From: Anaerolineae bacterium
GTDB taxonomy: Bacteria > Chloroflexota > Anaerolineae > Aggregatilineales > Phototrophicaceae
Reading direction: 5' to 3'
Length of the DNA stretch: 41,272 nucleotides
Assembly: GCA_016788625.1 (NCBI GenBank)
Contig: JAEUQX010000318.1
Coordinates: 1-41,272 of the forward strand
Made by a program: the position numbers and the translations under genes. Below, piece after piece: positions 2,337 to 4,091 of the stretch. The notes under the pieces are model-generated. The model worked only from the letters and a program-made list of their open reading frames with translations. It did not search any database and was not told where the DNA came from. Position 1 is the first letter of the stretch, and each line of letters begins with the position of its first letter.

Positions 2337-2768
2337 TTACGGTGTGTGTTTGTGCGGCGTAGATCCCTGCCATCCCACAGGATAGAGGGCAATATCCAGC
2401 GCTGTCCAGAACTGGCGCGCATCGTGTTCATTGAGCCGCACGAGCCAACTTTGTTCACCGACCCAGCCTGACAGTTCAAAGCCACCTGTCTCGATCTGAT
2501 CAACATTGATGTGTGTGGTGATGGTTGGCAGGTCGGAGGCGCGCAGCGGGGCAGTAGTCACCAACGCCGTTACCATGTCAGATTTTTCTGGGAATAGGAA
2601 GCGGGTGAGGTGAAACCAGAGCATCTGCGCCGCGCGTTGTGACAGGACCCGCGTCCATCGTGAGGAGTCTTCCGCTGTGCCGCCCATGACAATCGAGTCA
2701 CTGCTGGCCTTGCGGCTCACGAACAGGTTGGTGGAGTAACCATACGCGATTTTTTGTTCGTCTGCCAT
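2337..2768 (-). CDS. Conserved-looking hypothetical protein downstream of selD
   Basis: A 143-residue protein I do not recognise. It has no signal peptide, no membrane helix and no cysteines that suggest metal binding. The sequence alternates predicted beta strands and helices, with a tryptophan-rich second half (GWVGEQSW, FWTALDIALYPVGW). An AGAGGT site lies 9 bases before the ATG. It follows the selD stop by only 30 bases on the same strand with no terminator between, so the two are probably cotranscribed from the selD promoter. That placement might hint at a link with selenium metabolism, but nothing in the sequence shows it. Confidence 0.7.
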   Translation of the reverse strand: MADEQKIAYGYSTNLFVSRKASSDSIVMGGTAEDSSRWTRVLSQRAAQMLWFHLTRFLFPEKSDMVTALVTTAPLRASDLPTITTHINVDQIETGGFELSGWVGEQSWLVRLNEHDARQFWTALDIALYPVGWQGSTPHKHTP

Positions 2769-2798: not shown

Positions 2799-3848
2799 CT
2801 AGTTCTTTTGAACGCGCAGAACCCCACTGCCGGCCAACGCTCGCCCGATGATTTCCGCAGTTTCTCCAACTGCCTGGAGCGCCGCTACCAGTGCTGCTGC
2901 GTCTTCTGGCGCGACCGCGATCAGCAGCCCGCCCGATGTCTGCGGGTCATAAAGCAGGTCGAGGTCAATGTCGCTGACCTTCTCGCCAGCCCGCACCCAT
3001 TTCTCGAAATACTCGCGGTTTCGGCTCATGCCGCCGGGAAAAATCTCTTGTTCGGCGTAATTTCGTGCGCCGGGCAACCACTGCAGCGCGTCGAATTGAA
3101 TCTCGAAGTCCGCCGCTGAAAGGTGCGCCATCTCGTGCCCGTGCCCAAGCAGACTGTAACCCGTGATGTCGGTCATCGCATGTACGGTGAATCCGCGCGC
3201 GATCCGTGAGGCATCGCGGTTCAATCGGCTCATACTCTCAATCGCTGCGGCAACATGATCATCCTGGGCGATGCCTCGTTTGAGGGCTGTCGTGATCGTA
3301 CCCGTGCCCAGCGCTTTAGTCAGGATGAGATAGTCACCAGGTTTTGCTCCACCCTTCGCCAGGATGTTCTCCGGATTGACTGTTCCCGTCACCGCCAGAC
3401 CATACTTCGGTTCTTTATCGGTGACGGTGTGCCCCCCTGCGATCACAGCGCCTGCTTCTTTGACCTTATCCGCACCGCCGCGCAGGATTTCCGTCAGGAT
3501 GCTCATATCCAGACCATCCGGGAATGCCACCAGATTGATCGCCATGAGCGGGTCGCCACCCATTGCATAGACATCGCTCAGCGCGTTGGCAGCCGCAATC
3601 GCGCCAAAGGCATAGGGATCATCGACGACTGGCGGGAAGAAATCCACCGTTGAGATGATCGCACGGTCTTCATCCAGGCGATAGACAGCCGCATCATCCG
3701 GCGCATCCAGGCCGACGAGCAGGGCAGTATAATCTTGTGCTGGGAATAATCCCTTCAGCGGTCGCAGCACCTGCGCCAGGTCACGAGGACCAAGCTTGGA
3801 TGCTCAACCTGCACAGGCAGCCAGGGATGTGAGCTTGATGTTGGTCAT
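2799..3848 (-). CDS. selD: Selenide, water dikinase (selenophosphate synthetase), itself a selenoprotein with in-frame TGA
   Basis: Makes selenophosphate from selenide and ATP, the selenium donor for selenocysteine (and for 2-selenouridine in tRNA). The open frame from 3770 lacks the catalytic N-terminus, but reading upstream through one TGA (3804-3806) restores it: MTNIKLTSLAACAG-U-ASKLGPRDL. Sec15 aligns with catalytic Cys17 of E. coli SelD, and K18 aligns with essential Lys20. The full product is 349 residues, against 347 in E. coli. Downstream motifs agree: DDAAVYRLDED, STVDFFPPVVDDPYAFG, AANALSDVYAMGG and the Gly-rich AGGHTV. The start at 3848 is supported by a promoter (TTGCAG-N17-TATACT) about 40 bases upstream; the Shine-Dalgarno is weak. 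Sec at this site is known in other SelD proteins. The organism should therefore have selA, selB and selC, none of which is in this window. A pseudogene is unlikely because every other position is conserved. Confidence 0.95.
3775..3795 (-). promoter_or_regulatory. Candidate bacterial SECIS hairpin after the selD UGA
   Basis: Starting 9 bases after the UGA, the mRNA can fold G-C-U-(U/U mismatch)-G-G-U-C against G-A-C-C-(U)-G-G-C: seven pairs with one mismatch and a five-base CUCGU loop. The loop lies about 17-21 bases past the UGA, the spacing expected for a SelB-binding element. It lacks the G in the first two loop positions that E. coli SECIS elements have. A second hairpin (CGCAG-GUG-CUGCG) lies just downstream. 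Folded by eye only. Confidence 0.45.
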
Positions 3849-3889
3849 ATCGATCTCATTTCATTCTAAAGGCGAATAGCGACAGATAC

Positions 3890-3918
3890 AGTATAGGAAG
3901 CACGACAATACGCTGCAA
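3890..3918 (-). promoter_or_regulatory. selD promoter
   Basis: On the minus strand TTGCAG (3918-3913) and TATACT (3895-3890) are separated by 17 bases, a good sigma-70-type promoter. It predicts a transcript starting near 3883, about 35 bases before the selD ATG at 3848. It supports the long, TGA-containing form of selD over the truncated frame starting at 3770. Confidence 0.65.
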
Positions 3919-3963
3919 GGCTGGCGGTGCGGTCTGCACAATTCGTTGACAAAATCTTTGGGG

Positions 3964-3992
3964 TTGCAGGGGGTATCGTGCTCCCTTATAAT
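3964..3992 (+). promoter_or_regulatory. tRNA-Pro promoter
   Basis: A perfect TATAAT (3987-3992) lies 17 bases after TTGCAG (3964-3969). The predicted transcript begins only a few bases before the tRNA at 4003. It diverges from the selD promoter. Confidence 0.65.
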
Positions 3993-4002
3993 CTGTGGTG
4001 TA

Positions 4003-4076
4003 CGGGGCGTGGCGCAGCCTGGTAGCGCGCTTGCATGGGGTGCAAGAGGTCGTGGGTTCGAGTCCCGCCGCCCCGA
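4003..4076 (+). tRNA. tRNA-Pro (anticodon GGG)
   Basis: A complete 74-base cloverleaf. The acceptor stem CGGGGCG pairs with CGCCCCG. The D arm is GCGC...GCGC. The anticodon stem CTTGC/GCAAG holds loop ATGGGGT, giving anticodon GGG (proline, codons CCC/CCU). The T arm GTGGG-TTCGAGT-CCCGC has one mismatch-free five-pair stem except at its outer edge, where G-C pairing holds. The discriminator base is A and the CCA end is not encoded. It has its own promoter and terminator. Confidence 0.96.
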
Positions 4077-4091
4077 CTTTCCCGACCTGAT

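Follow-up and report, generated by a model that had tools for sequence, protein, structure and literature searches.

An in-frame UGA codon, predicted to encode selenocysteine, in the selenophosphate synthetase gene of an Anaerolineae bacterium

In the window (the whole 41,272-nucleotide stretch of DNA that was analysed), a plain search for open reading frames finds the selenophosphate synthetase gene selD as a frame of 323 aa at positions 2799-3770, starting at a GTG codon. The same frame continues upstream through one TGA to an ATG. The question raised by this locus is therefore whether the TGA is read as selenocysteine (Sec), which would restore the catalytic loop of the enzyme, or whether it marks an error, a dead gene or merely the region ahead of the true start. 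We are almost certain that selD encodes a Sec-containing selenophosphate synthetase in which UGA is decoded as residue 15. The reading frame, the exchange of UGA with Cys codons, the hairpin that follows the UGA, the Sec machinery and the further selenoprotein genes can all be read in the DNA, and from these we infer that Sec is actually incorporated and that the enzyme is active.

The selD frame and its product

The features of the gene and of its immediate surroundings are as follows.

2799..3848, minus strand: selD, selenophosphate synthetase, full-length frame of 349 aa with one UGA taken as Sec (TIGR00476; AIRS and AIRS_C domains)
3846..3848, minus strand: ATG start of the long form, read from the sequence; a Met lies at nearly the same position in several close relatives
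3804..3806, minus strand: in-frame TGA, predicted Sec15, equivalent to E. coli Cys17, from the sequence and from the occurrence of TGA or Cys codons only in 109 relatives
3795..3797, minus strand: codon for Lys18 of the UxxK motif, equivalent to E. coli Lys20, from the frame and the alignment
3768..3770, minus strand: GTG codon picked as the start by a plain ORF caller, which is also the apical loop of the SECIS hairpin
3890..3918, minus strand: weak promoter candidate found by eye, TTGCAG-17-TATACT, with 8 of 12 consensus matches
2337..2768, minus strand: gene that follows selD after 30 bases and encodes a 143-aa protein unmatched in Pfam and NCBIfam
4003-4077, plus strand: tRNA-Pro (GGG), directly upstream of selD on the opposite strand

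The TGA at 3806-3804 is the sole interruption of the frame that runs from 3848 to the stop codon at 2801-2799 on the minus strand. When it is read through, the protein begins MTNIKLTSLAACAGUASKLGPRDLAQVL, of which the mechanical ORF loses the first 26 residues. The earlier note had described this frame with its motif CAGUASK, had matched U to Cys17 and K to Lys20 of E. coli SelD, and had pointed out that ordinary gene calling would truncate the gene; all of this agrees with the sequence and with the alignment to the E. coli structure. Its claim of a good promoter ahead of the long form fared less well, as no sigma-70-like site passes a consensus scan on the minus strand and the best candidate found by eye, listed above, is only suggestive as the selD promoter.

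The protein as a whole scores 386.5 bits against NCBIfam TIGR00476, where the cut-off is 125, which places it in the family, and both the AIRS and AIRS_C domains are present. The segment U15-A-S-K18 supplies the catalytic Sec or Cys and the Lys (UxxK or CxxK) that characterize the N-terminal loop. Without a gap, the read-through N-terminus aligns to the Se-binding loop of the solved SelD chains 3u0o (E. coli) and 2yye (Aquifex aeolicus), and on this alignment the agreement is far beyond chance. E. coli SelD is homologous over its whole length (E=2.5e-69), with Cys17 and Lys20 in the places of Sec15 and Lys18, but it has Cys at the Sec position and a nearby Cys19 rather than the upstream Cys12. 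The A. aeolicus enzyme (PDB 2yye, 2zau, 2zod) has the same domains, aligned over residues 4-339, and the same N-terminal loop (SSGCAAKVGP compared with CAGUASKLGP here), although it has no counterpart of the extra Cys12 that precedes Sec by three residues in the protein studied here. We take the native A. aeolicus enzyme to carry Sec at this loop position, the crystal form being a Cys mutant.

In the proposed mechanism, SelB together with Sec-tRNA-Sec would bind a hairpin just 3' of the UGA, which would then be decoded as Sec15. Sec15 and Lys18 would lie in a mobile N-terminal loop that handles selenide, and the AIRS core would bind ATP. The selenophosphate formed would supply SelA, the maker of Sec-tRNA-Sec, so that SelD would be a product of its own pathway, as in many bacteria.

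Downstream of selD, the gene for the 143-aa protein recurs close to selD in 16 related loci, some of them in genomes with a Cys-type SelD (L032, L033 and L036), and it could be a selenium-linked gene. The tRNA-Pro upstream is the only Rfam match at gathering cut-offs across the window.

The hairpin downstream of the UGA

3760..3777, minus strand: bacterial SECIS hairpin, GGCGCAG-GUG-CUGCG(A)CC, nt 30-47 counted from the U of the UGA, with 7 pairs, one bulged A and the loop GUG

The model of the bacterial SECIS element (bSECIS) describes an apical loop of 3-9 nt on a stem of 4-16 bp, with a G in the first two loop positions and a distance of 16-37 nt from the UGA (PMC13188914). The selD hairpin, with an energy of -7.5 kcal/mol, agrees with this description. 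Like other bacterial elements, such as those of the E. coli formate dehydrogenase type, it has a small loop that begins with GU, a stem of 4-16 bp and a loop located 16-37 nt from the UGA, but at 33 nt the loop stands near the far end of the permitted distance.

Pairing was assessed over 93 distinct UGA loci. The paired cells for the 7-pair hairpin numbered 522, compared to 395 +/- 9.7 (maximum 419) in 200 synonymous shuffles that preserved the protein and the codon choice of each gene. This test ignores relatedness, for which a gene-wide scan partly controls, and in that scan the hairpin ranked first of 3,786 windows along selD (z 13.7 against a gene-wide spread of 2.1). Several of the pairs vary on both sides (pair 33-43, for instance, is GC in 59, CG in 7, AT in 6 and TA in 3), and the eleven Cys-type genes show weaker pairing at the hairpin positions.

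The element became visible by this position-specific scan and not by the folding energy of the whole region. Folded as a single sequence, the 57 nt that start at the UGA favour another structure at minimum energy and give no signal (z -0.12), and the mean folding energy is mildly below that expected from synonymous shuffles (mean z -1.2). With the fold restricted to nt 14-54, leaving out the first 13 nt, the hairpin belongs to the best structure; on a footprint argument, a ribosome paused at the UGA would leave these nucleotides uncovered.

The position of the hairpin also bears on where translation starts. A functional product beginning at GTG 3770 without the Sec loop, for instance a regulatory isoform, is conceivable as the frame is open from that codon onwards. 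However, this GTG is the apical loop of the SECIS hairpin itself, the shortened product would be without the catalytic Sec/Lys loop and there is no second SelD in the genome, and we therefore consider such a start very unlikely.

Codon exchange and Cys12 among related genes

SelD-like matches were found in 284 of 298 genomes searched from the class Anaerolineae. Among the matches listed, exactly one TGA is present in each apart from five, of which one spans residues 44-343 only. The codon at the Sec15 column was compared in 109 loci from Chloroflexota, Firmicutes, Acidobacteriota and others, drawn from the class-wide search and from named public contigs, two sets that partly overlap. TGA occurs in 98 of them, TGT in seven and TGC in four, with no other codon found, and the Lys three residues further on is kept in every row of the aligned relatives shown. 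The TGA is kept within the genus, the family and the class and swaps with Cys codons only, which at the codon level is the textbook Sec/Cys exchange. Thus selD has the in-frame TGA over a conserved Cys, present as TGA in other organisms as well, by which a bacterial selenoprotein is recognized. Alignment to known Sec-SelD proteins, which the earlier note had proposed as a check, supports Sec at the TGA.

The Sec-SelD proteins of other Anaerolineae and Chloroflexota MAGs (L049, JAIOHM010000022.1; L053, QUBZ01000053.1) are 71-76% identical and share the same UGA, the motif CAGUA(S/A)K, the SECIS region and the downstream genes, with ordinary divergence as the only difference. Among prokaryotic selenoprotein families, Sec-SelD, with the motif UxxK, ranks second in breadth of occurrence (PMC13188914), and in 223 reference genomes Sec is found in 19% of the SelD genes, invariably at this position (PMC4561486).

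A different case is that of a close relative, 68% identical (L056, near 3001-4032), which has TGC in place of TGA. Its downstream sequence still folds as a SECIS-like hairpin, which is what a recent change from Sec to Cys would lead one to expect.

This distribution can be set against the explanation that the TGA arose by a sequencing error or a nonsense mutation, with selD being either a pseudogene or an inactive gene truncated at the N-terminus. A lone in-frame stop in one MAG would look identical, but here a further 97 loci, most of them assembled independently, also have TGA at this codon, and the remainder have Cys codons only. Furthermore, the frame is otherwise intact and the gene is the only SelD copy of a genome that also holds Sec machinery and several selenoprotein genes, and an error or a dead gene is accordingly extremely improbable.

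The Cys12-x-x-Sec15 pair, which the earlier note had singled out, is present in the sequence. Cys12 is typical of Chloroflexota SelD and is missing from most other phyla sampled, and it would therefore be dispensable for catalysis in general. In the class sample it was found in 25 of the 26 UGA-type loci compared to one of the four Cys-type loci, three of the four being from one genus. It may be that Cys12 and Sec15 of the Chloroflexota enzymes close to a selenenylsulfide, which would protect or regulate the enzyme under oxidation or accept selenium from a carrier. We hold this to be a rather doubtful proposal, and a lineage effect alone could explain the distribution of Cys12.

Selenocysteine machinery and the use of selenium

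The source genome is a draft MAG of 6.64 Mb in 744 contigs, with Anaerolineae MAGs as its nearest named relatives. The earlier note had made Sec in SelD dependent on the presence of Sec machinery, and SelA, SelB and tRNA-Sec are all represented in this genome. The tRNA-Sec, with the anticodon TCA, scores 70.8 bits (gathering cut-off 47). The selA gene scores 448.5 bits and is interrupted by a contig end, whereas the N-terminal GTPase part of selB (293.5 bits) and its C-terminal part are found at two different contig ends. As both are cut by contig ends in this fragmented MAG, selA and selB are only presumed to be intact here; full-length selA is found in relatives.

Alternatively, the UGA could be an ordinary sense codon of the organism (e.g. 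for Trp), with no recoding, but we give this next to no credence, as no evidence in its favour was found, the tRNA-Sec of the genome has the anticodon TCA, no further in-frame TGA occurs in the rest of SelD or in the SelA and SelB parts, the UGA is placed at the catalytic Cys/Sec column and not at Trp columns, and neither tRNA-Trp(UCA) nor frequent TGA at Trp columns was seen in the genes examined.

Co-occurrence was examined in 26 genomes. Both SelA and tRNA-Sec are present in all thirteen genomes with a UGA-type selD, and neither was found over cut-off in any of the eight genomes without a convincing SelD. The four Cys-SelD genomes are divided, with SelA and tRNA-Sec in one, tRNA-Sec only in another and neither in the remaining two. 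The 26th genome (G232) falls in none of these groups, as its SelD match was not typed by codon; SelA and tRNA-Sec are both present.

Two observations concern the Cys-SelD genomes. One of them (G222, contig C15) has tRNA-Sec without a detected SelA, which is perhaps an assembly gap or perhaps decay of the Sec trait. Two genomes of the same order, G107 (L032) and G270 (L031), have a Cys-type SelD with no SelA, tRNA-Sec or SelU over cut-off; the orphan SelD in these genomes may provide selenophosphate for a different purpose, the Se-cofactor trait being one candidate.

Other genes with an in-frame UGA had been suggested as a check on the Sec reading, and three family searches gave at least four in the source genome (the list is not exhaustive).

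Contig C79 (L142): Prx-like protein with FGUIHC (UxxC), single in-frame TGA at the known redox position
Contigs C293 (L143) and C275 (L144): one CMD/AhpD-like protein each, with CHYU and CLYU respectively (CxxU), single in-frame TGA at the known redox position in both
Contig C585 (L145): SelW-like protein with CAAU (CxxU), single in-frame TGA at the known redox position

Prx-like, AhpD/CMD-like and SelW-like proteins all figure, with these motifs, among the known selenoprotein families (PMC13188914), and the four genes are likely to be selenoprotein genes. With several UGA genes at redox positions, the organism probably uses Sec in several proteins. When formate dehydrogenase was searched for in the genome, the only matches were to molybdopterin oxidoreductases, below threshold and lacking TGA, and FdhA is thus not evidently a selenoprotein in this genome. 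Zhang et al. (2006), who had already counted selenoproteins of Chloroflexi, discussed Sec-SelD as the keeper of the Sec trait where FdhA is missing (PMC1794560), an idea that fits the source genome since no Sec-FdhA was found there. The selenouridine trait (SelD with SelU/YbbB) was also considered as a use of selenophosphate and was rejected, as SelU (TIGR03167) has no match over cut-off in the source genome or in 25 relatives.

Our literature search found no dedicated selenoprotein survey of Anaerolineae, although general surveys of selenium and work on formate dehydrogenases of deep-sea Chloroflexi turned up. Selenoprotein genes are usually misannotated (PMC4561486), and the Sec-SelD arrangement is itself already well known and often missed by automatic gene finders, so that no concept is changed by this locus. 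What is corrected is the annotation: without recoding, the enzyme seems to miss its catalytic residue and the genome seems unable to use selenium. Across Anaerolineae, a mostly uncultured class, Sec-SelD with a SECIS element is the usual form.
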